In this document: positions 9,478-21,719 of the stretch, one piece after another | Numbering within the stretch: the first letter of the stretch is position 1 | Layout of the letters: every line of letters begins with the position of its first letter | Assembly (NCBI RefSeq): GCF_022271405.1 | Contig: NZ_JAJNAL010000024.1 | Location: 1-64,000 of the forward strand | Source: Rhodopseudomonas infernalis | Lineage (GTDB): Bacteria > Pseudomonadota > Alphaproteobacteria > Rhizobiales > Xanthobacteraceae | DNA: 64,000 bases | Direction of reading: 5' to 3' | Translations under genes and position numbers: made by a program | The notes under the pieces: model-generated | Told to the model about the DNA's origin: nothing | What the model saw: only the letters and a program-made list of their open reading frames with translations | Database searches by the model: none

Positions 9478-10596
9478 ATGCAGAGAACAAAAGCCCCCTT
9501 CCGCGCCGACGAAGTCGGCAGCCTGCTGCGCCCGCAGAGCATCAAGGAGGCGCGCGCCAAATTGGAGAAGGGCGAAATCACCGCCGCCGATCTGAAGAAG
9601 ATCGAGGACTTGGAGATCGAAAAGGTCGTTCACAAGCAGGCGGCGATCGGCCTGAAGCTCGCCACCGACGGCGAGTTCCGCCGCTCTTGGTGGCACTTCG
9701 ACTTTCTCAGCCATCTGACTGGCTGCGAACTCTATCATCCGGACACCGGCATTCAATTCGCCGGCGTACAGACCCGCAACGATTCGATCCGGGTGATCGG
9801 GAAGCTCGACTTCCCGGACGATCATCCGATGCTCGATCACTTCCGCTTCCTGAAGAAGCACGCCGACACCGCACATGTGACGGCCAAGATGACGATCCCG
9901 TCGCCGGCCGTGCTGCATTTCCGCGGCGGCCGCAAGGCGATCTCCAATGACGTTTATCCTGACCTCGACGTGTTCTTCGAGGATCTGGCCAAGACCTATC
10001 GCAAGGCCGTCAAGGCGTTCTACGACGCCGGCTGTCGCTATCTGCAGTTCGACGACACGGTGTGGGCCTATCTGTGCTCGCAGGACGAATTGGAGAAGGC
10101 CCGCGCCCGCGGCGACGATCCGGACAATCTGCAGCAGATCTACGCCCGCGTGATCAACTACGCGATCGCCGATCGGCCGGCCGACATGGTGATCACCACG
10201 CATGTCTGTCGCGGCAATTTCCGCTCGACCTGGATTTCGTCCGGCGGCTACGAGCCGGTGGCCGAGACGCTGCTGGCCGGCATCAATTACGACGGCTACT
10301 TCCTGGAATACGACTCCGAGCGCGCCGGCGGCTTCGAGCCGCTGCGTTTCCTGCCGAAGGGCAACAAGGTCGTGGTGGTCGGCGTCATCACCTCGAAGTT
10401 CGGCGAACTCGAGAAGAAGGACGACATCAAGCGCCGTCTGGAGGAGGCCGCCAAGTTCGCTCCGCTGGAGCAGCTCGCCGTCTCGCCGCAATGCGGCTTC
10501 GCGTCGACCGAGGAAGGCAACATCCTCAGCGAGCAGGAGCAGTGGGACAAGCTGCGCCTCGCCGTCGAGGTGTCGCAGGAGCTGTGGGGCAAGTAG
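9478..10596 (+). CDS. MetE C-terminal-domain-like (YxjG/YxjH-type) zinc methyltransferase
   Basis: A 372-residue single-domain relative of the catalytic half of cobalamin-independent methionine synthase. It opens with FRADEVGSLLRP, and contains QFDDTVWAYL (substrate-binding Asp region), TTHVCRGNFRS (His and Cys, predicted Zn ligands) and SPQCGFAST (third ligand Cys). It lacks the N-terminal folate-binding half of MetE, so the methyl donor is probably something other than methyl-tetrahydropteroyl-glutamate, or a partner protein is needed. ATG 9478 follows GGGAGTGAGACG. It directly follows livF, so the importer might deliver a methylthio or methylated compound; that link is inferred from position only. 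Confidence 0.88.
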   Translation: MQRTKAPFRADEVGSLLRPQSIKEARAKLEKGEITAADLKKIEDLEIEKVVHKQAAIGLKLATDGEFRRSWWHFDFLSHLTGCELYHPDTGIQFAGVQTRNDSIRVIGKLDFPDDHPMLDHFRFLKKHADTAHVTAKMTIPSPAVLHFRGGRKAISNDVYPDLDVFFEDLAKTYRKAVKAFYDAGCRYLQFDDTVWAYLCSQDELEKARARGDDPDNLQQIYARVINYAIADRPADMVITTHVCRGNFRSTWISSGGYEPVAETLLAGINYDGYFLEYDSERAGGFEPLRFLPKGNKVVVVGVITSKFGELEKKDDIKRRLEEAAKFAPLEQLAVSPQCGFASTEEGNILSEQEQWDKLRLAVEVSQELWGK

Positions 10597-10605
10597 CTGA
10601 GGAAC

Positions 10606-10664
10606 AAGCAAGCCGAAAGTGAGCGGGTCACAGGATGCACCTGCTCGCTTTGCTTGCTTTCGTT
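10606..10664 (+). terminator. Long hairpin after the Liv/MetE-like operon
   Basis: AAGCAAGC...GTGAGCGGGT (10606-10628) pairs with ACCTGCTCGC...GCTTGCTT (10639-10659) with a few G-U pairs and one bulge, leaving a loop of about 10 bases. A short T-rich stretch follows. It begins 10 bases after the MetE-like stop and could end the operon. Confidence 0.5.
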
Positions 10665-10814
10665 ATCATTGCGATCGGAGCAGGCGGCACTCCGCCTGTT
10701 CTGGCGCAGGCGGAATTTCTGCTTGGCGACGGGCAACAGATCGCCAGCGGCCAGTTAGTCTTCTTTCTCCATCATGGCCGGCATAAGACCGGCCGTGCCC
10801 GTGAGACGCAGTGA
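10635..10814 (+). CDS. Possible small secreted protein (59 residues)
   Basis: An open frame with ATG 10635 encodes a plausible signal peptide (HLLALLAFVIIAIGAGG, then VLAQA) followed by a short mature part ending RHKTGRARETQ. AGGATG overlaps the start, so no properly spaced ribosome-binding site is seen. Its first codons lie in the loop and 3' arm of the hairpin at 10606-10659, and its end holds another small inverted repeat (GGCCGG/CCGGCC). The frame may be fortuitous. No family recognised. Confidence 0.28.
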   Translation: MHLLALLAFVIIAIGAGGTPPVLAQAEFLLGDGQQIASGQLVFFLHHGRHKTGRARETQ

Positions 10815-10817
10815 CGC

Positions 10818-12122
10818 TCAGCCACGCCCCACGCCCTGATACGTGAACCCGTGCTCGGCCATCTCTTCCGGCCGGTACACGTTGCGCAGGTCGACGATCA
10901 CCGGCTGCTTCATCGTGGTCTTCAGGCGCGGCAGGTCGAGCGCACGGAATTGCACCCATTCGGTGACGATCACAAGAACATCGGCGCCTTGCGCGCAATC
11001 GTAGGCATCTTCGCAATAGATGATATCGGGTAGCTCGGCCTTGGCCTGCGCCATGCCCACCGGATCGAACGCGCGCACGGTTGCGCCCATGTCGATCAGA
11101 CCGGTGATCAGCGGTATCGACGGCGCGTCGCGCATGTCGTCGGTGTCCGGCTTGAAGGTCAGCCCGAGCACCGCCGCAGTCTTGCCGCGGAGACTGCCGC
11201 CGAGGGCGTTGGACACTTTGCGGGCCATCGCGCGCTTGCGGTTGTCGTTGACGGACAGCACCGCCTCGACGATGCGCAGCGGCACGTCGTGGTCGTGCGC
11301 GGTCTGCACGATCGCGCGGGTATCCTTGGGGAAGCACGAGCCGCCGAAGCCGGGGCCAGCGTGAAGAAACTTCTGGCCGATCCGGTTGTCCATGCCGATA
11401 CCGCGGGCAACGTCCTGGACGTCGGCACCGACCTTCTCGGCGAGATCGGCCATTTCGTTGATGAAGGTGATCTTGGTCGCCAGGAAGGCATTTGCGGCGT
11501 ACTTGATCAGCTCTGCGGTGCGCCGTGCCGTGTACATCAGCGGGCCTTGGTTGAGCGACAGCGGCCGATAGATTTCACCCAGCACCTTGCGGGCGCGCTC
11601 GTCCGCGGTGCCGATGACGATCCGGTCGGGGAATTTGAAGTCGCGGATCGCCGCGCCTTCGCGCAGGAATTCCGGATTGGAGGCGACCGCGGCGTCGGCG
11701 TCTGGGTTGGTTTCGTGGATCAGCCGTTCGACTTCATCGCCGGTGCCGACCGGCACGGTCGACTTGGTGACAACCACGGTGAAGCCCTTCAGCGCTGCGG
11801 CGATTTCTCGTGCGGCCGAATAAACGTAGCTGAGGTCGGCGTGGCCGTCGCCGCGCCGCGACGGCGTACCCACCGCGATGAAAACGGCGTCTGCCTCGCC
11901 CACCGGAGCGGTAAGGTCGGTGGTGAAATAGAGCCGCCCGGCCTTGACGTTGGCGGCTACCAGCTCTTCCAACCCTGGTTCGTAGATCGGAATTTGCCCT
12001 TGATGCAAGGCGGCAATTTTGTTGGCGTCCTTGTCGACGCAGGTGACGTGATGTCCAAAATCGGCAAAGCAGGCTCCCGACACCAGGCCGACATAGCCCG
12101 TTCCGATCATTGCAATTCGCAT
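10818..12122 (-). CDS. ugd: UDP-glucose 6-dehydrogenase
   Basis: A 434-residue enzyme that oxidises UDP-glucose to UDP-glucuronate with NAD+, supplying exopolysaccharide and LPS sugars. The N-terminal Rossmann motif is MIGTGYVGLVSGACFADFG. The family signatures include STVPVGTG, NPEFLREG, the helix ELIKYAANAFLATKITFINE, and the catalytic Cys in GFGGSCFPKDTRA. The C-terminal NAD(P)-binding lobe has GLTFKPDTDDMRDAPS. Length and motifs are standard. It is transcribed alone: the upstream side is a gene-poor gap and the downstream neighbour is convergent. Confidence 0.96.
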   Translation of the reverse strand: MRIAMIGTGYVGLVSGACFADFGHHVTCVDKDANKIAALHQGQIPIYEPGLEELVAANVKAGRLYFTTDLTAPVGEADAVFIAVGTPSRRGDGHADLSYVYSAAREIAAALKGFTVVVTKSTVPVGTGDEVERLIHETNPDADAAVASNPEFLREGAAIRDFKFPDRIVIGTADERARKVLGEIYRPLSLNQGPLMYTARRTAELIKYAANAFLATKITFINEMADLAEKVGADVQDVARGIGMDNRIGQKFLHAGPGFGGSCFPKDTRAIVQTAHDHDVPLRIVEAVLSVNDNRKRAMARKVSNALGGSLRGKTAAVLGLTFKPDTDDMRDAPSIPLITGLIDMGATVRAFDPVGMAQAKAELPDIIYCEDAYDCAQGADVLVIVTEWVQFRALDLPRLKTTMKQPVIVDLRNVYRPEEMAEHGFTYQGVGRG

Positions 12123-12832
12123 GGTTCGCTCTTCCGCTCGGCCCCCAGGTGCGGCCCTGCGGAGCTCTTAGCAGAAATACCGGCATTGCAAAATGACAGC
12201 GCCAGAGACGTCGCTGTGGATCGGGATTCCTGTTGCACATAATTCGGTCAAGAGCAGCGTGAGCGCAGCGGCTCGTGGAGGGGGTGAGGAACGACGCGAA
12301 TTTGGTGATGCGCGATCAATCCTTCGCCAACCTCACACCCCCCTCAACGACAGTAGCAGGCCGACAACAGCGAACGCTCGACGCGCGCAGTCGCGCGCGC
12401 TGCGATGTGCGCCAAGAGGCGAACAGTGCGGCGACGACGAACAAATACATGAGGCTGCGGAAGATGCCGTCCTGCGTGGTGTTGAGGGCGAGGTCGTCGA
12501 TCGTGTGCTCGGCAGGTGGTGCCATTGTAGCCGATGATGCAACTCACTCCGTCGAAGAATCCGCCGAGACAGCGGCCGAACGGCACGCCGGCAAGATCTG
12601 AAGCGGCCGCGTTTCCGTTGTCGCCACGAATCTAACGTCCTGCAGTTTCGACATGATGGAGGGGCGCTGGCGAGGGCTAGGGACATGGCGGATCCGGTGA
12701 TGCGTTTCGCCCAAGGTTCCTATGCGATGCGCTCTGTGACGGAACCGGAGCCGGCTGCGGCAATTGACCATTGACGCGCAGCGCCGCGCATCCGTGTGCG
12801 GCTGCACAGCGTGTATCATCCCGAGGTTCCTG
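12123..12832. other. Gene-poor interval between ugd and the amidotransferase set
   Basis: About 710 bases without a confident gene. It holds the ugd promoter, the weak remnant frame at 12316-12525, an imperfect inverted repeat (GGAGGGGGTGAGG near 12277 against CCTCACACCCCCCTC near 12331), and presumably the promoter of the plus-strand amidotransferase operon. Confidence 0.5.
12316..12525 (-). pseudogene. Possible gene remnant or small membrane protein
   Basis: A 69-residue frame with one hydrophobic segment (SLMYLFVVAALFASWRT) after an acidic/polar start (EHTIDDLALNTTQDGIFR). Codon use in the first 45 codons resembles real genes here, then becomes Arg/Cys-rich and unlike protein. This suggests a decayed or truncated gene. 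It lies in the otherwise empty 12123-12832 interval. No homologue recognised. Confidence 0.25.
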
Positions 12833-13657
12833 ATGTGTCGCTGGATTGCCTATCGCGGAGAGGCCACTCTCTTCGAGAACTACGTCACCGAGCCGGTGCA
12901 TTCGCTCATCACGCAAAGCCTGCGTGCGCGCGAATCGGCCGGCCCGACCAATGGAGACGGTTTCGGGCTCGGCTGGTACGGCGTGCATCCCGAGCCGGGC
13001 CTGTATCGCGAGACGCGGCCGGCGTGGTCGGACGAAAACCTGCGCTATCTATGCCGGCATCTGCAATCGCACATGTTCTTCGCGCATGTACGCGCCGCCA
13101 CCGGCACGCCCGTCACGCGGCAGAACTGTCACCCGTTTGCGTGCGGCCGCTGGATGTTCATGCATAACGGCTTCGTCGGCAGCTGGAGTCGGCTGCGTCG
13201 CCGTATCGAGGCGATGATTCCTGACCCGCTGTATCCGTCGCGCAGCGGCAATACGGACTCCGAAGCGTTGTTTCTGGCCATTATGGGAGCCGGCATCGAC
13301 GCGGATCCGGTCGACGCGACTCGGAGCGTGATGATCCGGCTGCGCGATTTGCTCAATGAGAATGGCCTGCGCGAGCGGATGCGCTTCACAGCGGCTCTTG
13401 CCAATGGCCACGAGCTTTACGCCTTCCGCTTCGCAGAAAACGATACGGCAAATTCCTTGTATTACAGACAAGCCGGCGACAGGTTGATCGTCGCATCCGA
13501 GCCCTATGATGGTGAGCCGACCTGGACGGAGGTTCCGAACAATCACGTCGTGTTGTCTCGTTCCGCCCATGAAGTTGAATTGTTCCCCTTCATGCCGGAT
13601 GAACCGGAGCTGAAAGCGGAACATCCGGGTGCTCAAAAGGTTGTCGCGCGCGCCTGA
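12833..13657 (+). CDS. Class II glutamine amidotransferase (YafJ/EgtC-like)
   Basis: A 274-residue N-terminal-nucleophile glutaminase-type protein. The ATG at 12833 is chosen because it yields MCRWIAYRG with Cys2 as nucleophile after Met removal; a longer frame would bury it. NGDGFGLGWYG (Asn/Gly oxyanion region), HVRAATGTPVTRQNCHPF and FMHNGFVGSW are family motifs; SNTDSEALF-like SGNTDSEALFLAIMG follows. Such proteins hydrolyse Gln or a gamma-glutamyl amide, as EgtC does in ergothioneine synthesis, though no ergothioneine gene is present here. It lies 26 bases upstream of the AsnO-like gene and is likely in one operon with it and the GCS2 ligase. Confidence 0.88.
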   Translation: MCRWIAYRGEATLFENYVTEPVHSLITQSLRARESAGPTNGDGFGLGWYGVHPEPGLYRETRPAWSDENLRYLCRHLQSHMFFAHVRAATGTPVTRQNCHPFACGRWMFMHNGFVGSWSRLRRRIEAMIPDPLYPSRSGNTDSEALFLAIMGAGIDADPVDATRSVMIRLRDLLNENGLRERMRFTAALANGHELYAFRFAENDTANSLYYRQAGDRLIVASEPYDGEPTWTEVPNNHVVLSRSAHEVELFPFMPDEPELKAEHPGAQKVVARA

Positions 13658-13683
13658 AAGAGCAGCAAGCGAGGCCCTTCAAG

Positions 13684-15462
13684 ATGTGTGGTATCTGCGG
13701 AGAAATCCGCACCCGAGGAGATGTTCGGCTCTCGGATTTCTGGGAGATGACGCGATCGATGCAATCGCGGGGCCCGGATTCGGAGGGCGTGTTCGCCCAT
13801 GGTCTGGAGCACGGTTCGATGGCGTTCGGACATCGCCGTCTCGCGATCCTGGATCAGGCGTCGACTTCGCAACAGCCGATGATCGACAACGAACTCGGTC
13901 TCGGCATCGTCTTCAACGGTTGTATCTACAATTTTCGTGAGCTGAAATCCGAGTTGCAGGGCAAGGGATATCGCTTCTTCTCCGAAGGCGACACCGAAGT
14001 CATCCTGAAGGCCTACCACGCGTGGGGCACCGACTGCGTGCGCCGTTTCAAGGGGATGTTTGCCTTCGCGTTATGGGAGCGTGATGGCGGCCGCGTCGTG
14101 CTCGTTCGCGATCGGCTCGGCATCAAGCCGCTGTACTACACGGAAGGGGATGGTTATTTCCGTTTCGCATCGAGCTTGCCGTCACTGCTGGCCGCGGGCG
14201 GCGTCGACCGCACACTGGATCCGGTCGCGCTGCAGCAGTTCTTCAGCTTCCACGCCGCGGTGCCGGCGCCGCGCACCATCCTCAAGAGCGTGAAGAAGCT
14301 CGAGCCCGCCACCATTCTGACGATCCAGCCGGACGGCACGAAAAAAACGGAACGGTATTGGCACTTCACGGTCGGCGATCGATCCGGCGACCGCCGACTG
14401 AGTGAGCAGGAGTGGAGCAAGGCCGTCAGCGACGCGATGCTCGCGGCGGTCGATCGCCGCCGCGTCGCGGACGTACCGGTCGGCGTGCTTCTGTCGGGCG
14501 GTCTCGATTCGTCGCTGATTGTCGCGCTGCTCGCCAAGCTCGGTCACGGCAACGTCCGCACCTTTTCGATAGGCTTCGAAAGCGTCGGCGGTCAGAGCGG
14601 CGATGAGTTTTACTACTCGGACATTGTCGCGAAGCATTTCGGCACCGAACATGAGCAGATCCGCATCGACGGCGGAGAAGCCCTGGGCGTTCTCCCCGAT
14701 GCGATCCGCGCGATGTCCGAGCCGATGGTCAGCCACGACTCGGTGGCGTTCTATCTGCTGTCGCGCGAAGTCGCCAAGCGGGTCCGCGTGGTGCAGAGCG
14801 GGCAGGGTGCCGACGAGATTTTCGGCGGCTACAGCTGGTATCCGTCTTTCCTCACCGCCAACGATGCCACCCGGCAATACCGCGATGCTTACTTCGACTG
14901 GCAGCAAGACGACCTGCGTAAGTTGTTGTCGGATGACGTCGACGAAGATCACGGCACCGCATTCGTGGAGTCGTTCTTCGCCCGAACGGCCGCGACCTCG
15001 GCGGTCGACAAAGCGCTGCAGATCGACGCCGAAATCATGCTGGTCGATGACCCGGTCAAGCGTGTCGACAACATGACGATGGCGCACGGCCTAGAAGCCC
15101 GCGTCCCGTTCCTCGATCACGAGGTGGTCGAGCTCGCGGCCAGGATGCCGTCGCGGCTCAAGGTCGCGGACGGCGGCAAATACATTCTCAAGCAGGCGGC
15201 GCGCTCGTTGCTGCCCGCTGAGGTGATCGATCGGCCGAAAGGTTACTTCCCGGTTCCGTCGTTGCGGCATCTGCGCGGCGAATTTCTCGACTATGTTCGG
15301 GACGTCCTGAACTCGCCCGCTGCACGTCAGCGCGGACTGTATCGATCAGAGTTCATCCAGCATATGCTCGACGAACCGGAAGCGGAGAAAAGCCCAAAAG
15401 GTCACTCCCGGCTGTGGCACGCCGCTCTGCTCGAAGCTTGGTTGCAAGAACATGCAATTTGA
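13684..15462 (+). CDS. Asparagine-synthase family amidotransferase (AsnO-like)
   Basis: A 592-residue two-domain enzyme. Residues 1-200 are a class II glutaminase domain starting MCGICGEIRT (Cys2 nucleophile) with SRGPDSEG and FNGCIYNFRELK. Residues 240-560 are the ATP-pyrophosphatase domain with the PP-loop SGGLDSSLIVALLAK and a following GQGADEIFGGY. Length and organisation resemble AsnO, the N-acetylglutaminylglutamine amidotransferase that amidates a dipeptide osmoprotectant, more than classical AsnB, but this is recall without alignment. The usual Ngg partner (acetyltransferase/ATP-grasp ligase) is not in the window. It overlaps the GCS2-type ligase by 11 bases, which argues that the two act in one pathway. 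Confidence 0.85.
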   Translation: MCGICGEIRTRGDVRLSDFWEMTRSMQSRGPDSEGVFAHGLEHGSMAFGHRRLAILDQASTSQQPMIDNELGLGIVFNGCIYNFRELKSELQGKGYRFFSEGDTEVILKAYHAWGTDCVRRFKGMFAFALWERDGGRVVLVRDRLGIKPLYYTEGDGYFRFASSLPSLLAAGGVDRTLDPVALQQFFSFHAAVPAPRTILKSVKKLEPATILTIQPDGTKKTERYWHFTVGDRSGDRRLSEQEWSKAVSDAMLAAVDRRRVADVPVGVLLSGGLDSSLIVALLAKLGHGNVRTFSIGFESVGGQSGDEFYYSDIVAKHFGTEHEQIRIDGGEALGVLPDAIRAMSEPMVSHDSVAFYLLSREVAKRVRVVQSGQGADEIFGGYSWYPSFLTANDATRQYRDAYFDWQQDDLRKLLSDDVDEDHGTAFVESFFARTAATSAVDKALQIDAEIMLVDDPVKRVDNMTMAHGLEARVPFLDHEVVELAARMPSRLKVADGGKYILKQAARSLLPAEVIDRPKGYFPVPSLRHLRGEFLDYVRDVLNSPAARQRGLYRSEFIQHMLDEPEAEKSPKGHSRLWHAALLEAWLQEHAI

Positions 15463-16684
15463 CCCGAAGATCATCGAGCGGCTGCGGCTTCATTTGAGTG
15501 GCGATCACCGCCATCTCGTCATCCGCTCGGCTGCTGGCGTCGACGCCGTGGCGGCGAGCTACTCGTTCGGTATCGAGGAGGAGTACTTCCTCGCCGACGC
15601 CGCCACCGGCGAGGCCGCGGTGCTGACGCCGAATGAATTGTTCGAAGCCGCGAACTGGTCGACCGGCGGGCAGGTGATGCGCGAGATGCTGCAGGCGCAG
15701 ATCGAAGTCGCCACCAACGTCCATGTCGATCCGAAAGACGCGCGCGAAGAATTGCGATTTCTGCGCCGCGAAGTCGCTGCCGTTGCCGCGCAATACGGCC
15801 TCGCCATCATGGCATGCAGCACGCACCCGACCGCGTCGTGGCGTGCGTCGCAGCCGAGTCCGAAGCCGCGTTATTTCGAGATGATCGAGGATCTCCAGAT
15901 TATCGGTCATCGCAACATGCTGTGCGGCATGCATGTCCACGTGCAAATCCCCGAACCTGACAAACGGTTCGCGGTGATGTGCGCGATGATCCCCCACCTG
16001 CCGCTATTCCTGGCGCTGTCGACCTCATCGCCATTCTGGAATTCCGAGGACACCGGCCTGCGCGGTTATCGGCTGGCCGCCTACAGCGAGCTCCCGCGCA
16101 CCGGGCTGCCCGAGTTGTTTGAAGATCAGCGCGGTTACGAGGACTACGTCAACGCGCTGGTGAAGTCGGGCGTGATGCCCGACGAGAGCCACGTGTGGTG
16201 GGCCATCCGTCCGTCTTTCCGGCACCCGACGCTGGAATTGCGAGCGCCGGATGTCTGCACCCGGCTCGATGACGCGGTGTCGATCGCCTGTCTGTATCGG
16301 GCATTGGTGCGGCATATCGGCGAAATGCCGGAGACCCCGAAGGTCGATGCCGTCGAGCGGGCGATCGCCGTCGAGAACAAATGGCGCGCGCAGCGCTACG
16401 GCACCGGCTGCAGCTTCGCCTCGCGCGATGGCGCGATCCCGATCGCCGATGCGCTCGATCGCATGATCGAATTGGTCCGCGAGGACGCGGCGGCGCTCGG
16501 CTGCGAAGAGGAAGTCGCGGCTGCCCGCAACATCCTGCGGCGCGGCAGCTCGGCGGATACCCAGCTCCGCGTCTTCGAAGAGAGCGGCGGCGACCTTCGT
16601 GCTGTGACACGCTGGATCGCCGATGAGACCATCGCCGAGGCGGGCTCGTCGACCGCCCCGACCCCACGGGACGCCGTGAAGTAG
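15452..16684 (+). CDS. GCS2-type carboxylate-amine ligase (YbdK-like)
   Basis: A 410-residue ATP-dependent ligase of the glutamate-cysteine ligase 2 family. After an N-terminal extension of about 36 residues comes SYSFGIEEEYFLAD, the acidic Mg-ATP motif. Others are GMHVHVQIP, WWAIRPSFRHPTLELRAPD (substrate and metal region) and ENKWRAQRYG. The family joins an amino group to the gamma-carboxylate of Glu or a similar acid; the true substrate of YbdK-type members is usually unknown. The start overlaps the end of the AsnO-like gene, so the two are translationally coupled. Together with the upstream glutaminase this could make and amidate a glutamyl peptide. Confidence 0.88.
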   Translation: MQFDPKIIERLRLHLSGDHRHLVIRSAAGVDAVAASYSFGIEEEYFLADAATGEAAVLTPNELFEAANWSTGGQVMREMLQAQIEVATNVHVDPKDAREELRFLRREVAAVAAQYGLAIMACSTHPTASWRASQPSPKPRYFEMIEDLQIIGHRNMLCGMHVHVQIPEPDKRFAVMCAMIPHLPLFLALSTSSPFWNSEDTGLRGYRLAAYSELPRTGLPELFEDQRGYEDYVNALVKSGVMPDESHVWWAIRPSFRHPTLELRAPDVCTRLDDAVSIACLYRALVRHIGEMPETPKVDAVERAIAVENKWRAQRYGTGCSFASRDGAIPIADALDRMIELVREDAAALGCEEEVAAARNILRRGSSADTQLRVFEESGGDLRAVTRWIADETIAEAGSSTAPTPRDAVK

Positions 16685-16777
16685 AGCGGGCTGACCGAGG
16701 CAGTCGGCTCGACGGAACCGGTTCACCGGTTTCGGCGGCCGTCATTGGGACGCCTGTCGCCGAGACGGACTGCGAAG

Positions 16778-17008
16778 CTAGACGCTATGCAGCCGCGGCT
16801 TCGACGACAGGATGCGCTGCGCCAGCACGACCGGGCAGTCCGGGGCGTGCTTGATCTCGTCGCCGGTCTGCAGCCACGGCACCGAGGCGTTGCATAGTTT
16901 GCACTGATTGTGCGCGCCGCCGTCTTCTTCGGAGACGATCTCGATCGCCGTCTTCAGAAGGGCAGTCGCGACCTTGCGGATATCTTCCGGGGCGGCGAAG
17001 TCGGCCAT
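16778..17008 (-). CDS. Small protein with a Cys-x2-Cys / His-Cys pattern
   Basis: A 76-residue cytoplasmic protein. It begins ADFAAPEDIRKVATALLKTA, a predicted helix, then has CKLCNASVPW and HAPDCPVVLA, giving three Cys and one His placed as in small zinc-binding domains. No known family is assigned. It is convergent with the ligase gene and lies 33 bases upstream, on the same strand, of the small His-rich secreted protein gene. Likely real because codon use is normal and the frame is closed by proper signals. Confidence 0.68.
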   Translation of the reverse strand: MADFAAPEDIRKVATALLKTAIEIVSEEDGGAHNQCKLCNASVPWLQTGDEIKHAPDCPVVLAQRILSSKPRLHSV

Positions 17009-17041
17009 GGCATCAAGTCCGTTACAAGCTGCGGTCGTTGA

Positions 17042-17293
17042 TCAATAGCACGGATGCCGGCGGCCATCCTGGCCGCGATAGGCGGCCGCGCTCTGCTTGC
17101 ACAGCGCCGAGGTCGGACCGTCATAATAGGCGTAGGGCTGGCCGGGCCAGACCGGTGGACCATAATTGTGGATGTAGAGCGAGCCCTCGCCATGATGCCG
17201 ATGGTGATGCCGGTGCTTGTGTTTGGCCGCCGCCGGCGCGGTGGCCGCGAGCGACACCACGGCAACGGCACAAACCAGTTTGAAGACGGTCAT
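17042..17293 (-). CDS. Small secreted His-rich protein
   Basis: An 83-residue protein with a signal peptide (MTVFKLVCAVAVVSLAATAP, cleavage after AAA). The mature N-terminus KHKHRHHHRHHGEG is strongly His-rich and could bind metal ions in the periplasm. Two Cys near the C-terminus (ALCKQSAAAY and RHPCY) could form a disulfide. ATG 17293 is chosen because the signal then starts at residue 1, and GGAGATTCCCT precedes it. Function unknown. Confidence 0.72.
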   Translation of the reverse strand: MTVFKLVCAVAVVSLAATAPAAAKHKHRHHHRHHGEGSLYIHNYGPPVWPGQPYAYYDGPTSALCKQSAAAYRGQDGRRHPCY

Positions 17294-17363
17294 AGGGAAT
17301 CTCCTGCCTGCCGGATGGAACGCGGCCGAACCCGTTCGGGTTTCATCGCTGAACCTGCCGATG

Positions 17364-18386
17364 TCAAGCGGGTTGCTGGTCCCCCGCTCGCAGCGGCCTC
17401 TCCACTGCGCGCAGCATCGTGGCGCCGCCGGCGCAACCCGCCAGCCGTTCAATCTCGGCGACGATCACCTCGGCGTGCGCATGGTGCGCCATATGCCCGG
17501 CGCCCGCGATGCGGATCATCCGCGCGCGCGGCATTGCTTGCGCCAGCGCCTCGGCATGAATCTGGGGCGGCACCACCGGATCGGCGCTGCCGGCGATGAT
17601 CACAGTGGGGACGCGCACCGCCGGGTAGCGAGGCACGTGGTCAATCAACTGGTCGCGCAGCCCGGAATACTCCTGCAAGCTGCCAGAGAATCGTTTCGCC
17701 ATCAGCGCCAAGCCGAGCCGGCTGCGGTCGGCGTAGTCCGGTGGCGGCGGCTCCGGCCGGAAGATCCGCGTCGCGACGCGGCCCATCATCGCCATGAACA
17801 TCGGCGGCAGTACCGTGTAGTTGACAGACGGCTTCATCAGCACGTCGAACACGCGCTGGACCCAACGGATCCCGCGCGGCCTCGGGTGGGTGGTCGGATT
17901 GATCACCATCAGCCCCTGTACTGTGTCGGGATTATCGAGCGCATAGCGAAGCGCAATCAGCCCGCCGAACGAATGCCCGACCACGATCAGCGGCCCGGTC
18001 ACGCCGCATTCACGCAGCACCTCGCGCAGCAGCGTCACCTGGTAGGCCGGCGACGCCAGCGGTCCCATGCCGGGCGCGCTGTAGCCCTGGCCGGGCCGAT
18101 CCGGAATGATCACCCGCAGATTGCGTGACAGACGCTCGCCAAGCGCCATTCGCATATCTTCGCTGCACAGATTGGCGCCGTGCACCAGCAGCACCGTCGG
18201 CAGCGTCCGGTCGGAGGGTTGCGCCGGGGGCAGATCAAGCACGTGCATCCGCACGCCATTGGCGGTCACGAACACGCCACGCGGCGGGAATTTCGCCTCG
18301 AGCTTGCGCGCGATCGAGCACGACAGCCAGCCGGAGCCGAATAGCAGCGCGGCGGCGATCAGCACCAGCACAATGGCGGCAATCAT
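17364..18386 (-). CDS. Alpha/beta hydrolase, membrane-anchored
   Basis: A 340-residue serine hydrolase. Residues 1-25 are a hydrophobic anchor (AAIVLVLIAAALLFGSGWL). The fold then shows VLLVHGANLC (oxyanion His-Gly), the nucleophile elbow VVGHSFGGLIAL, an Asp in IAGSADPVVPP and the catalytic His in IAGAGHMAHHAHAE. The substrate is unknown; related proteins are annotated as haloalkane dehalogenase-like or epoxide hydrolase-like, but no diagnostic residues support either. It is divergent from the exporter operon starting at 18537, with a gap of 150 bases. Confidence 0.88.
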   Translation of the reverse strand: MIAAIVLVLIAAALLFGSGWLSCSIARKLEAKFPPRGVFVTANGVRMHVLDLPPAQPSDRTLPTVLLVHGANLCSEDMRMALGERLSRNLRVIIPDRPGQGYSAPGMGPLASPAYQVTLLREVLRECGVTGPLIVVGHSFGGLIALRYALDNPDTVQGLMVINPTTHPRPRGIRWVQRVFDVLMKPSVNYTVLPPMFMAMMGRVATRIFRPEPPPPDYADRSRLGLALMAKRFSGSLQEYSGLRDQLIDHVPRYPAVRVPTVIIAGSADPVVPPQIHAEALAQAMPRARMIRIAGAGHMAHHAHAEVIVAEIERLAGCAGGATMLRAVERPLRAGDQQPA

Positions 18387-18536
18387 TCAGGATCCTTCGG
18401 ACGACAGTCCCAACGCGGACAAGCTCCGCAGCGACAACGGAAATTTGATCACGTGGCGCGCCCTGCGCATTGATCTTTCGCAATGGCCGATGGGCTTGGC
18501 GGCGCTACGGCTCGGTCGGGCAATCGACGGATCACC

Positions 18537-19811
18537 ATGCAACTGGAAGCGGATCAACCGGGCAGGGCGGCGTCGACCGCGCCGGCCGCCGGGCTCGGCC
18601 GATGGGCGGGCGCGCTCTGGCGCTACAGGTGGTTGGTGCTGGGCATCGGCCTGGTGCTGATCGCGGCCGGTGCCGGTCTGGTCCGGCTGACGCTCGGCCC
18701 GCACGTCGCAGCCGTCGTGGCCGAGCGCGGCAATCTGGTGCAGACGGTGGTCGCCTCCGGCCATATCGAGACGCCCTACCGGGTCGAGATCGGCAGCCAG
18801 ATCACCGGCACCGTCGCCGACGTGCTGGTGCGCGAAGGGCAGGAGGTTCACCAAGGCCAGCCGCTGATCGCGATCGAGGCCAGCGAGCTGCAGGCCGCGG
18901 TGGTACAGGCCGAGGGCGCGGTGGCGCAGGCCGAGGCGCGGGTGCGCCAGCTTCGCGAGCTGACCAAGCCGTCTGCCGATCAGGCGCTGCAACAGGCGCA
19001 GGCCAATCTGCTCAATGCCGAGGCCGCCTATCAGCGCGCCTCCAAGCTCGCCGCCTCCGGCTATGGCACCAAGGCGACGCTCGACGACGCCACCAAGAAT
19101 CTCGACGTCGCCCGCACCCAGGTCCGAACCGCGGAGCTGCAGGTCTACACCTCGAGCCCGGTGGGCAGCGATTATGTGATGGCCGAAACCCAGCTCGGCC
19201 AGGCCCGCGCCACGCTCAACACCACGCGTGCCCGGCTCGGCTACGCCAGCATCACGGCGCCGCGCGACGGCGTGCTGATCACCCGCAATGTCGAGCGCGG
19301 CAGCGTGGTGCAGCCCGGCAGGGCCCTCCTGGTGCTGGCGCCGGCCGGCGACAGCCAGATCGTGGTGCAGATCGACGAGAAGAATCTCGGCCAGCTCGCG
19401 CTCGGCCAGAGCGCGCTGGCCTCCGCCGACGCCTATCCGGACAAGCGCTTCGCGGCGCGGCTCAGCTACATCAACCCGTCGGTCGATATCAACCGCGCCT
19501 CGGTCGAGATCAAGCTCGCGGTCACCGATCCGCCGGACTATCTGCGCCAGGACATGACGGTGTCGGTCGACATCGCCACCGCTCGTCGCGACAACGCGGT
19601 GATCGTGCCGGCGCGCGCGGTCAACGACGCCGCCACGGTGCCCTATGTGCTGAAGGCCGAGAGCGGCCGTGCCGTGCGGCAGTCCGTCAAACTCGGCCTG
19701 CGCGGCGTCGGCGCCTACGAGGTGATCGAGGGCCTCGCGCCGGGCGACCGGGTGATCCCGCTCACCACCGGCGTCAAGCCCGGCGATCGCATCCGCGTGG
19801 TCACGCCGTGA
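18537..19811 (+). CDS. HlyD/MacA-type periplasmic adaptor protein
   Basis: A 424-residue adaptor. One membrane segment (about residues 28-50, WLVLGIGLVLIAAGAG) is followed by the lipoyl/barrel half-motif VEIGSQITGTVADVLVREGQ, a long Ala/Gln-rich coiled coil (residues 110-210), and the second lipoyl half ASITAPRDGVLITRNVERGS. It bridges an inner-membrane ABC exporter to the outer membrane. The start is uncertain: an ATG at 18483 would add 18 residues, and neither has a good ribosome-binding site. It overlaps the permease gene by 4 bases (GTGA). No TolC-like gene is nearby. Confidence 0.86.
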   Translation: MQLEADQPGRAASTAPAAGLGRWAGALWRYRWLVLGIGLVLIAAGAGLVRLTLGPHVAAVVAERGNLVQTVVASGHIETPYRVEIGSQITGTVADVLVREGQEVHQGQPLIAIEASELQAAVVQAEGAVAQAEARVRQLRELTKPSADQALQQAQANLLNAEAAYQRASKLAASGYGTKATLDDATKNLDVARTQVRTAELQVYTSSPVGSDYVMAETQLGQARATLNTTRARLGYASITAPRDGVLITRNVERGSVVQPGRALLVLAPAGDSQIVVQIDEKNLGQLALGQSALASADAYPDKRFAARLSYINPSVDINRASVEIKLAVTDPPDYLRQDMTVSVDIATARRDNAVIVPARAVNDAATVPYVLKAESGRAVRQSVKLGLRGVGAYEVIEGLAPGDRVIPLTTGVKPGDRIRVVTP

Positions 19812-21034
19812 AGCGCTGGCTGCCGTTCGAGTGGATCGCCGCGGTGCGCTTCCTGCTCGACGGCGCACTACAGACGCTGGTGATCGTCGGCGGCATCGCT
19901 ATCGGCGTCGGCGTCATCGTCTTCATGTCGGCGATGCTGGCCGGGCTGCAGGCCAATTTCATCAAGCGCGTGCTGACCTCGCAGCCGCAGATCCAGCTGA
20001 TCCCGCCCGATCAGATCGCGCGTCCGCTGCGCAACGAACCCGGCACGGTCGAAATCGCGACGGTGCAGCGGCCGACCCAGCGGGTGATCTCGATCGATCA
20101 ATGGCCGAAGATCCGCGCCGAGATGCAGGCGCGGCCGGACGTCGTCTACGCCGCCGCCACCGCGTCGGGCTCGGCGCTGGCGCTGCGCGGCGACACCAGC
20201 CGGGCGATCACGCTGTACGGCATCGAGCCGGAGATCTATTTCCAGATCGTCAAGGTGCCGGATTTCATCATCGCCGGCGAAGCCCAGATCACCACCGAGG
20301 GAATCCTGATCGGCGTCGAACTGGCGCGCGATCTCGGCGCGTCGCTCGGCGACAAGATCATCGTCTCGACGCCGCTCGCCGGCAATCGCATCCTCACCAT
20401 CAAGGGCATCTTCGATTTCGGCAACAAGGCCGCCAACCAGCGCAACACCTTCGTGACGCTGCGCAACGCCCAGAGCATGCTCGGCCTGATCGGCGGCATC
20501 ACCTCGATCGACATCACCGTCGCAGACATCTACACCGCCGAAACCATCGCGCAGGAAATCCAGGCGACGCTGCCGGTGAAGGCCGATAGCTGGATCCGAA
20601 CCAACGCGCAGTTCTTCACCGCCGTGAAGGCGCAGCAGAATTCCAACACGCTGATCCGGCTGTTCGTCGGCCTTTCGGTGGCGTTCGGCATCGCCGCGGT
20701 GCTGATCGTTTCGGTGATCCAGCGCTCCAAGGACATCGGCATCCTGCGCGCGATGGGGACGCGCCGCGGGCAGATTCTCCGCGTGTTCCTGATCCAGGGT
20801 GGGCTGCTCGGCTTCGTCGGCGCGCTGATCGGCTCCGGCCTCGGCGCGCTGGCGCTGTTCGCGTGGCATCAATCGGCGCGACAGGTCGACGGCAGCGAGC
20901 TGTTTCCGCTGATCCTCGAATCCGAATTGTTCATTGCGGCGTCGCTGCTGGCGTCGCTCACCGGCGTTGCGGCCGCGATCGCGCCGGCGCTGCGGGCAGC
21001 GCGGCTCGATCCGGTGGTGGCGATCCGTGGCTGA
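19808..21034 (+). CDS. MacB/LolC-type ABC exporter permease (FtsX family)
   Basis: A 408-residue permease beginning at a GTG that overlaps the adaptor stop. It has one N-terminal membrane segment ([21 protein letters not shown]), a large periplasmic domain (residues 45-270) and three C-terminal segments, the FtsX/MacB_PCD layout. [22 protein letters not shown] near residue 310 is the coupling helix region of this family. The C-terminal end [15 protein letters not shown] is conserved in MacB-like permeases. Its ATPase is a separate protein encoded next. Substrate unknown: lipoprotein, peptide or small molecule. Confidence 0.9.
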
Positions 21035-21719
21035 AGTCCTGCGCCTCGACGGCATCCGCAAGTCCTACAATGTCGGCACCCCGGTCGAGACCGAGGTGCT
21101 GCACGGCATCGATCTCACGCTGCACGCGCGCGACTTTCTGGCGCTGATGGGGCCATCGGGCTCCGGCAAGTCGACGCTTCTCAACATCATCGGGCTGCTC
21201 GACCGGCCGACCGCGGGCAAGCTGACGATCAACGGCGAAGACACTGGCCTGCTCGGTGACGCGGCGCTGACGCAACTGCGCGGCCGCGCGATCGGCTTCG
21301 TGTTCCAGTATCACTATCTGATCTCGGCCTTCACGGCGCGCGAGAACGTGATGATGCCGATGCTGGTCGATCGCGGCCATCCGGATACGGCGATGGAGCG
21401 CCGCGCCGACGAACTGCTCGACCGCGTCGGCCTCAGCCGCTGGCGCAACAACAGCGCCAGCAACATGTCCGGTGGCCAGCAGCAGCGCGTCGCCATCGCC
21501 CGCGCGCTGGCGATGAACCCGGACCTCGTGCTCGCCGACGAGCCGACCGGCAATCTCGACACCAAATCCGCCGACGACGTGTTCGACCTGATGCGCGAAA
21601 TCAATCGCGAACGCGGCACGACGTTTCTGCTGGTGACCCACAATGACGATCTCGCCAAACGCTGCGACCGCATCGTGCAGGTGGTGGATGGACGGATTGC
21701 GGGAGAGCAGGCGACTTGA
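21027..21719 (+). CDS. LolD/MacB-type ABC exporter ATPase
   Basis: A 230-residue ATPase starting at GTG 21027 inside the permease end (8-base overlap). Walker [12 protein letters not shown]-loop [12 protein letters not shown], signature [17 protein letters not shown], Walker [13 protein letters not shown] and switch [11 protein letters not shown] are all intact. The DEPTGNLD form is typical of the LolD/MacB branch. It completes a three-gene exporter with the adaptor and permease. Confidence 0.93.

Follow-up and report, generated by a model that had tools for sequence, protein, structure and literature searches.

Ngg makes an N-acetylated dipeptide in the synthesis of N-acetylglutaminylglutamine amide (NAGGN). 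This compound is described as the product of Ngg and AsnO together, with a known osmotic role (PMC8070244). In Sinorhizobium meliloti and Pseudomonas the genes are found as an asnO-ngg-M42 cassette, the last gene encoding an M42 peptidase. Ergothioneine synthesis is the other described pathway that bears comparison here: EgtA and EgtC combine a GCS2-type ligase and a class II N-terminal nucleophile (Ntn) gamma-glutamyl hydrolase in one pathway, and a study of Methylobacterium describes EgtC as releasing glutamate from a gamma-glutamyl intermediate (PMC4621440). We compare these systems with three adjacent genes of Rhodopseudomonas infernalis, which encode an EgtC-like amidohydrolase (GAT), an AsnO-type amidotransferase, and a GCS2 ligase. 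They lie within a stretch of 64,000 nt (contig NZ_JAJNAL010000024.1, positions 1 to 64,000), referred to below as the window.

Our best reading is that the cassette is a variant of the AsnO peptide-amide pathways, related to NAGGN synthesis but differing from it. We propose, with a probability of roughly 0.55, that the trio is a self-contained cassette for making and turning over a gamma-glutamyl-capped peptide amide. It would follow the NAGGN plan with the first enzyme replaced (GCS2 for Ngg) and with GAT as the matching hydrolase, and its product would most likely be a stress solute. Our evidence consists of which genes are present, how they are inherited together, their return in unrelated lineages, a motif split, and promoter enrichment; from these we infer the chemistry, the product, and the physiology alike. 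The three genes are as follows.

12833..13657, plus strand: gene 1, GAT, a class II Ntn amidohydrolase (GATase_4), EgtC-like, 274 aa, Cys2 nucleophile, starts MCRW (ORF call, Pfam, NCBIfam)
13684..15462, plus strand: gene 2, AsnO-type glutamine-dependent amidotransferase, 592 aa, starts MCGICG (Asn_synthase and GATase_7; TIGR03104)
15452..16684, plus strand: gene 3, GCS2/YbdK-type carboxylate-amine ligase, 410 aa, with an N-terminal extension of ~33 residues (GCS2; PRK13515)

The enzymes of the cassette

GAT, AsnO, and GCS2 form a tight operon and a real module. The initial annotation had described three tightly packed genes, and the open reading frames bear this out, with a 26-nt gap between GAT and AsnO and an 11-nt overlap between AsnO and GCS2, all on the plus strand. 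The set goes beyond chance because the trio is co-inherited in the genus and its arrangement of genes is met again in a distant order. Family searches agree with the identities first given to the products, namely a Cys2 class II enzyme, an AsnB/AsnO-type amidotransferase with SGGLDSS (residues 271–277), and a GCS2 ligase.

AsnO scored 904.3 bits against the NAGGN equivalog model TIGR03104, above the cut-off of 570.1, compared with 444.1 for the asparagine synthetase model TIGR01536 (above its cut-off of 267.1) and 290.1 for PRK09431 (cut-off 499; all NCBIfam). It also nests among Ngg-linked AsnO in our trees, which had no AsnB outgroup, in keeping with the AsnO-like label of the initial annotation. 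Its AlphaFold model has a mean pLDDT of 93.6, and the nearest solved folds are TsnB9 (Z 39.6) and E. coli AsnB (Z 38.3). GAT reached 195.6 bits against the EgtC model TIGR03442, under the cut-off of 218.65 (NCBIfam), and its nearest solved relatives include EgtC. Cys2, N-x-DGFG, an Arg, HNG, and an Asp are kept in 41/41 aligned GAT sequences, two bona fide EgtC among them.

The ligase scored 501.1 bits against PRK13515 (cut-off 371) and also passed the cut-off of TIGR02050. Its nearest solved relatives are 1tt4 and 1r8g (YbdK), with which it has the motifs GIExE, HVHV, and IRPS...E.R in common. E. coli YbdK (PRK13516/TIGR02050) belongs to the same GCS2 family and is said, in the title of a 2004 paper by Lehmann, to be a gamma-glutamyl:cysteine ligase. 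The GCS2 of the trio differs from it in being of the PRK13515 type, in its N-terminal extension, and in its linkage to AsnO.

A whole-genome search found no Ngg in the organism's own genome, where the top TIGR03103 score was 54.7 bits against a cut-off of 569. That match is a 342-aa ATP-grasp-like protein encoded on another contig (L001 1261-2289, G000:C16), and it covers the C-terminal half of the model. The comparison with the NAGGN cassette is therefore one of likeness in plan and difference in parts. In most loci compared, AsnO of the NAGGN cassette is 54–61 per cent identical to that of the window; in both cassettes a ligase adjoins AsnO, and mostly a hydrolase adjoins the ligase. The window has GCS2 and an EgtC-like hydrolase, with no Ngg or M42 beside AsnO, and cassettes of its type have another AsnO tail motif and frequently an EcfG-type promoter.

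Co-inheritance and flanking genes

The trio is present together in 7/16 members of the genus, and all three genes are absent in 9/16 (own genome included). All seven copies keep the gene order and near-constant spacing, and the flanks vary between lineages. A UDP-glucose dehydrogenase gene upstream and MacAB-like exporter genes downstream flank the trio in the window and in G013; RND-pump-like genes, read by eye and not family-searched, lie downstream of it in G003, G005, G010, and G015. A larger operon with a fourth gene was considered and dropped, as the neighbours differ between lineages. A copy in another genus (G034; L043 8949-11891) keeps GAT and GCS2, and the AsnO between them consists of residues 311–592 only, the first 310 being lost; this is a decaying cassette.

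In the window, the genes downstream of the trio (18537-21719) encode an HlyD_D23 membrane-fusion protein, a MacB-like permease, and an ABC ATPase, and they are kept only in the closest relatives, G013 and G011. At 9478-10596 a Meth_synt_2 gene (cobalamin-independent methionine synthase-like) stands directly behind an ABC ATPase gene.

Codon-model scores of the trio are the 2nd, 7th, and 10th lowest among 48 genes, and its GC3 values are 0.73, 0.77, and 0.81, against a median of 0.86. This somewhat atypical codon use is compatible with acquisition and is no proof of it. As to mobile-element borders, there were no direct repeats of at least 20 nt within 10600-19000.

Two types of AsnO in the Xanthobacteraceae

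We searched 391 genomes of the family for AsnO and compared all 53 AsnO neighbourhoods with five queries. Genes in the fetched loci were called with a purpose-made codon-model caller, and the labels given to neighbours vary with the tblastn threshold, the length of the stretch, and the position of contig ends. The 53/391 genomes with AsnO fall into two types: seventeen are Ngg-type, in which AsnO is followed by Ngg and M42, and thirty-six are non-Ngg. Both by neighbourhood and genome-wide, Ngg was present in 17/17 genomes of the first type and 0/36 of the second. Neither the window nor any of the remaining thirty-five non-Ngg neighbourhoods gave a match to M42 peptidase, the genome-wide complement of M42 not having been searched. 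GAT is present in 34/36 non-Ngg genomes and 0/17 Ngg-type genomes, a contrast that is partly phylogeny since 13/17 of the latter belong to one genus. With GCS2 in 35/36 non-Ngg genomes, the earlier observation that Ngg is absent here and GCS2 is found instead extends well beyond the window.

The partners are often neighbours as well as co-residents. Among the thirty-six non-Ngg AsnO, sixteen cluster with both GAT and GCS2, eight with GAT only (one of these convergent), two with GCS2 only, and ten with neither. One or both partners thus cluster with AsnO in 26/36, and GAT is the partner most often found there (24/36). The scripted count was 15/8/2/11; G113 was re-counted as having both, its AsnO end, GCS2, and GAT sharing a second contig. 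Gene orders include GAT-AsnO-GCS2, AsnO-GCS2, AsnO-GAT, and AsnO-GCS2-GAT, and G199 carries AsnO-GCS2 and GAT-GCS2 as two separate pairs, the second GCS2 copy lying with GAT at L183 5376-7450. The AsnO-linked GCS2 of the family form their own clade of eighteen rows (SH-aLRT 99), made up of sixteen AsnO-adjacent copies, that of G113, and the second G199 copy. One genus (g58) contains both AsnO types, in different species. The initial annotation would have been undermined by rare adjacency in relatives or by clustering with true asparagine synthetases; neither was seen, though 10/36 AsnO are without a clustered partner.

GAT also occurs apart from AsnO, and in two such cases (L045 2635-3426 and L051 9611-10402) the stand-alone gene adjoins a LepA-like gene (elongation factor 4, identified by eye).

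A motif at the end of AsnO

The two types also differ just before the C-terminal helix of AsnO (residues 576–589 in the AlphaFold model). Here Gly574 (window numbering), the mark of a tail motif defined in the present analysis and not taken from the literature, is found in 86/87 Ngg-type AsnO, the exception being L152, and 78/87 have TPL-x-G. Non-Ngg AsnO has a Gly one place earlier, and the PKGHS tail of the window is of this kind. Gly574 occurs in 0/34 non-Ngg AsnO of the family that have a tail (two more are cut off), in 0/3 from the distant order, and in 1/33 of the other GCS2- or S9-linked AsnO, nearly all of them actinobacterial. The seven Ngg-type actinobacteria have TPLRGN (five), TPLNGN (one), and TTLKYN (one, L152). 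As they mostly carry TPL-x-G, the split is not simply one of phylum. We suggest from these alignments that the changed tail may mark a matching change of AsnO substrate.

The motif bears on whether the cassette might still make NAGGN, with an unlinked ligase in the place of Ngg. AsnO does exceed the cut-off of the NAGGN equivalog model, and the ATP-grasp-like protein with 54.7 bits to the C-terminal half of the Ngg model is present. Set against this are the absence of Ngg from all thirty-six such genomes, a tail motif unlike that of 86/87 Ngg-linked AsnO, and an Aquabacter genome in which asnO is present and the NAGGN genes are reported as absent in the account given (PMC11059613). We give continued NAGGN synthesis very little credence.

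Recurrence in other lineages

We assembled eighty-five AsnO loci, namely the best 80 from named genome contigs by likeness to Nonomuraea AsnO and five plasmid records; one of the best 80 (L140) repeats the family genome G216. Within the fetched stretches, Ngg was nearby in 50/85, and forty-three of these also had M42. Of the thirty-five non-Ngg loci, thirty-four had GCS2, an S9 peptidase, or GAT nearby, and the remaining one is a 3.6-kb contig. Many actinobacterial loci have the order GCS2-AsnO-S9, with all three genes in 22/85 and also in L104, where the script hid the AsnO match. Other actinobacterial AsnO loci are Ngg-type.

The actinobacterial loci resemble the trio in combining GCS2, AsnO, and a hydrolase and in the loss of Gly574 (missing in 32/33 AsnO). 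They differ in that their GCS2 matches PRK13517.1-1 best, S9 stands in for GAT, and AsnO is placed elsewhere in the tree. In the three cases tested (L107 4226-6901, L117 4357-6978, L134 4454-6997), the GCS2 upstream of AsnO and S9 carries a fused ATP-grasp domain of the circularly permuted type 2 kind (PF14403). The fusion is possibly a two-step ligase that builds a longer peptide before amidation.

Two single loci in this set are unusual. On an Acidimicrobiaceae contig (L152 5708-10212), AsnO adjoins both GCS2, on the opposite strand, and Ngg. On a contig labelled Nevskia (L127), AsnO and GCS2 group with Mycobacterium, and this contig is probably misbinned.

Closer to the window, AsnO was found in 23/385 genomes of the class (window included); the other twenty-two neighbourhoods comprise twenty-one that are Ngg-type and one (G718) with GAT-AsnO-GCS2. 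The distant alphaproteobacterial order to which G718 belongs has AsnO in 5/262 genomes: two with GAT-AsnO-GCS2, one with GAT-AsnO, one with Ngg-M42, and one solo. GAT and AsnO of G718 are 39 and 49 per cent identical to those of the window, and its GCS2 is 31 per cent identical to the nearest query.

The non-Ngg AsnO rows of alphaproteobacteria (thirty-five from the family, with G034 left out, plus Methylorubrum) form one clade (SH-aLRT 100) near Ngg-type Azospirillaceae, and actinobacterial and distant-order AsnO are placed elsewhere. Approximately unbiased (AU) tests reject a single clade of the trio with the distant order (P = 0.002), of the trio with the actinobacterial GCS2-type (P = 1.2e-5), and of the distant order with the actinobacterial type (P = 0.005), on a 40-row tree with groups chosen after earlier trees and with the distant group on a long branch. 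The GCS2 partners likewise have three different best models: PRK13515, PRK13517.1-1, and PRK13517.1-3 (the last under its cut-off). We advance as a tentative wider hypothesis, at somewhat less than even odds, that in three separate lineages Ngg, as the neighbour of AsnO, was replaced by GCS2. There would then be a widespread second AsnO branch making gamma-glutamyl-capped peptide amides. In actinobacteria and Bradyrhizobium-like alphaproteobacteria these would be general-stress solutes of a class not yet described, with genes that are now annotated as belonging to NAGGN, glutathione, or ergothioneine synthesis.

We found no description of a GCS2-AsnO or GAT-AsnO-GCS2 linkage in the open-licence papers searched; closed literature may hold one. 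A 2009 amidoligase survey by Iyer and colleagues may already include the linkage, and therefore we make no claim of a first report.

Promoter and regulation

The following control elements precede the genes.

12741..12765, plus strand: EcfG-like promoter, imperfect, with -35 GGAAC at 12741-12745, then 16 nt, then AATT at 12762-12765 against the consensus CGTT (alignment of 10 upstream regions)
12823..12826, plus strand: Shine-Dalgarno-like GAGG of gene 1 (read from sequence)
13671..13674, plus strand: Shine-Dalgarno-like GAGG of gene 2 (read from sequence)

The motif given for EcfG1, a general-stress sigma factor of Rhizobium etli, is GGAAC-N16-CGTT (PMC3892343). The pattern GGAAC-N16/17-YGTT lies within 400 nt upstream of 14/36 non-Ngg clusters, compared with 1/21 Ngg-type loci and ~1.6 per cent of random stretches. 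Within 170 nt it precedes 11/36 non-Ngg clusters, from seven genera, and 7/405 of the remaining genes in these loci (Fisher P = 5e-9, which is optimistic as the loci are related). In an alignment of ten upstream regions, only GGAAC, the -10 TT, the start codon, and a single C were invariant. GGAAC was the sole 5-mer in all ten segments; GC-rich 5-mers reach nine, so the count alone is weak. The enrichment fits the stress role put forward in the initial annotation. For the window's own operon, EcfG control is only suggested by the imperfect match.

Relation to ergothioneine and glutathione

Alternatively, GAT and GCS2 might serve ergothioneine synthesis as its EgtC and EgtA, or have a part in glutathione metabolism, with AsnO an unrelated neighbour. 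The genome does encode egtB-egtD, on another contig than the trio, and GAT matches TIGR03442 even if under the cut-off. Among AsnO genomes, those with GAT have EgtD more often than those without, and the Methylobacterium study gives the names egtA and egtC to homologues that are encoded separately (PMC4621440). Methylorubrum zatmanii has an AsnO-GAT locus, and the egtC of that study may be a GAT of the trio type.

The two pathways part in several respects. The trio is without EgtB/EgtD linkage and includes AsnO, and GAT falls outside the EgtC branch: two true EgtC, each encoded between egtB and egtD, sit on a long separate branch far from the trio-type GATs. EgtD is present in 9/9 genus members without the trio (in one, as two fragments), and none of these has a GAT or GCS2 of the trio kind. 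Conversely, G028, G033, and G098 keep AsnO-GAT, and no EgtD was found in them. A required role of the trio in ergothioneine synthesis is disfavoured, and we consider this whole explanation highly improbable. A glutathione role is likewise disfavoured, solely on the nine genus members without trio-type GCS2 (glutathione genes were not searched). The suggestion of a thiol-like product made at first did not hold up, as genomes can have ergothioneine genes without the trio and 9/16 genus members lack such a GCS2.

Proposed pathway

In the pathway that we propose, GCS2 would first, as expected from its family, couple glutamate through its gamma-carboxylate to an amino-acid or peptide amine at the expense of ATP. 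AsnO would then use ATP and glutamine nitrogen to amidate the free C-terminal carboxylate of that product, by analogy with the known AsnO reaction. EgtC-like GAT would finally open the gamma-glutamyl bond. The most likely purpose is recycling of the solute, much as the M42 peptidase may recycle NAGGN and the S9 peptidase may act in the actinobacterial version. Ngg-AsnO-M42, GCS2[-ATP-grasp]-AsnO-S9, and GCS2-AsnO-GAT would thus have in common a plan of ligase, amidotransferase, and hydrolase. Because the hydrolase differs with the ligase among these sister cassettes, matched turnover of each product seems the likely arrangement. A stress solute is the most likely product, given that the operon stands behind an EcfG-type general-stress promoter in many relatives. 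This product would be a gamma-glutamyl peptide or amino-acid amide, for which gamma-glutamylglutamine amide is the simplest, weak guess.

Step three could be read differently. GCS2 might add gamma-glutamate to an amino acid as a protecting group, which GAT strips off once AsnO has amidated the carboxylate, leaving a free amino-acid amide as the end product, by the logic of EgtA/EgtC. GAT is a paralogue of EgtC, has EgtC among its nearest solved relatives, and is the most frequent AsnO-clustered partner (24/36), all of which this scheme would accommodate. The third slot of sister cassettes, however, holds unrelated hydrolases (M42, S9), which would fit turnover better, and we regard the removal of a protecting group as the less likely use of GAT, unlikely if still a serious alternative.

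The initial annotation took GAT to be an extra stand-alone glutaminase. A separate class II domain is indeed present, but we favour an EgtC-like gamma-glutamyl amidohydrolase over a supplier of ammonia, given the Cys2 glutaminase domain within AsnO itself. The same domain counts against a scheme in which GAT and GCS2 act as a glutamine-dependent pair, GCS2 using ammonia from GAT to amidate a carboxylate and AsnO adding a second amide. This would make sense of the class II glutaminase motifs of GAT and of the GAT-GCS2 pair in G199 that has no adjoining AsnO. Yet YbdK is described as a gamma-glutamyl:cysteine ligase, and no GCS2 stood beside GAT in the nine AsnO-less GAT loci viewed (L045, L051, L052, and six annotated plasmid stretches). 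We judge such a pair improbable.

Several results weigh against the recycling pathway that we favour, in addition to the partly phylogenetic basis of the GAT split. GCS2 at the genome level does not discriminate between the AsnO types (35/36 non-Ngg against 15/17 Ngg-type genomes), and 10/36 non-Ngg AsnO have neither partner in their cluster. In G028, G030, and G033 the GCS2 lies in a broader clade and away from AsnO, and therefore acts there in trans or not at all. Many bacteria have GAT by itself, among them records from Sinorhizobium and Azospirillum, two genera that have Ngg. GAT and EgtD are correlated in the family, with EgtD present in 28/33 searched non-Ngg AsnO genomes and 6/7 GAT-bearing AsnO-less genomes, versus 4/17 GAT-less Ngg-type genomes. 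For the tail motif the sign test (median P = 0.5) is underpowered, with only two independent pairs that are well supported. The AU tests that involve the actinobacterial AsnO group are less clean, as Ngg-type rows fall inside this group. As to regulation, the upstream region in the window is without an exact EcfG motif, with AATT at the -10 where CGTT would be expected. No GGAAC occurs in the 400 nt upstream of the distant-order loci.

Implications

If the proposal is true, the label 'N-acetylglutaminylglutamine amidotransferase' misleads for many genomes, as 36/53 AsnO carriers in the family are without Ngg. The tail motif could let annotation pipelines tell NAGGN producers from the other AsnO type. 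The cassette also points to a stress metabolite in soil and phototrophic bacteria. More broadly, three lineages with differing ligases and hydrolases around a conserved amidotransferase would show how small-peptide amide pathways diversify.

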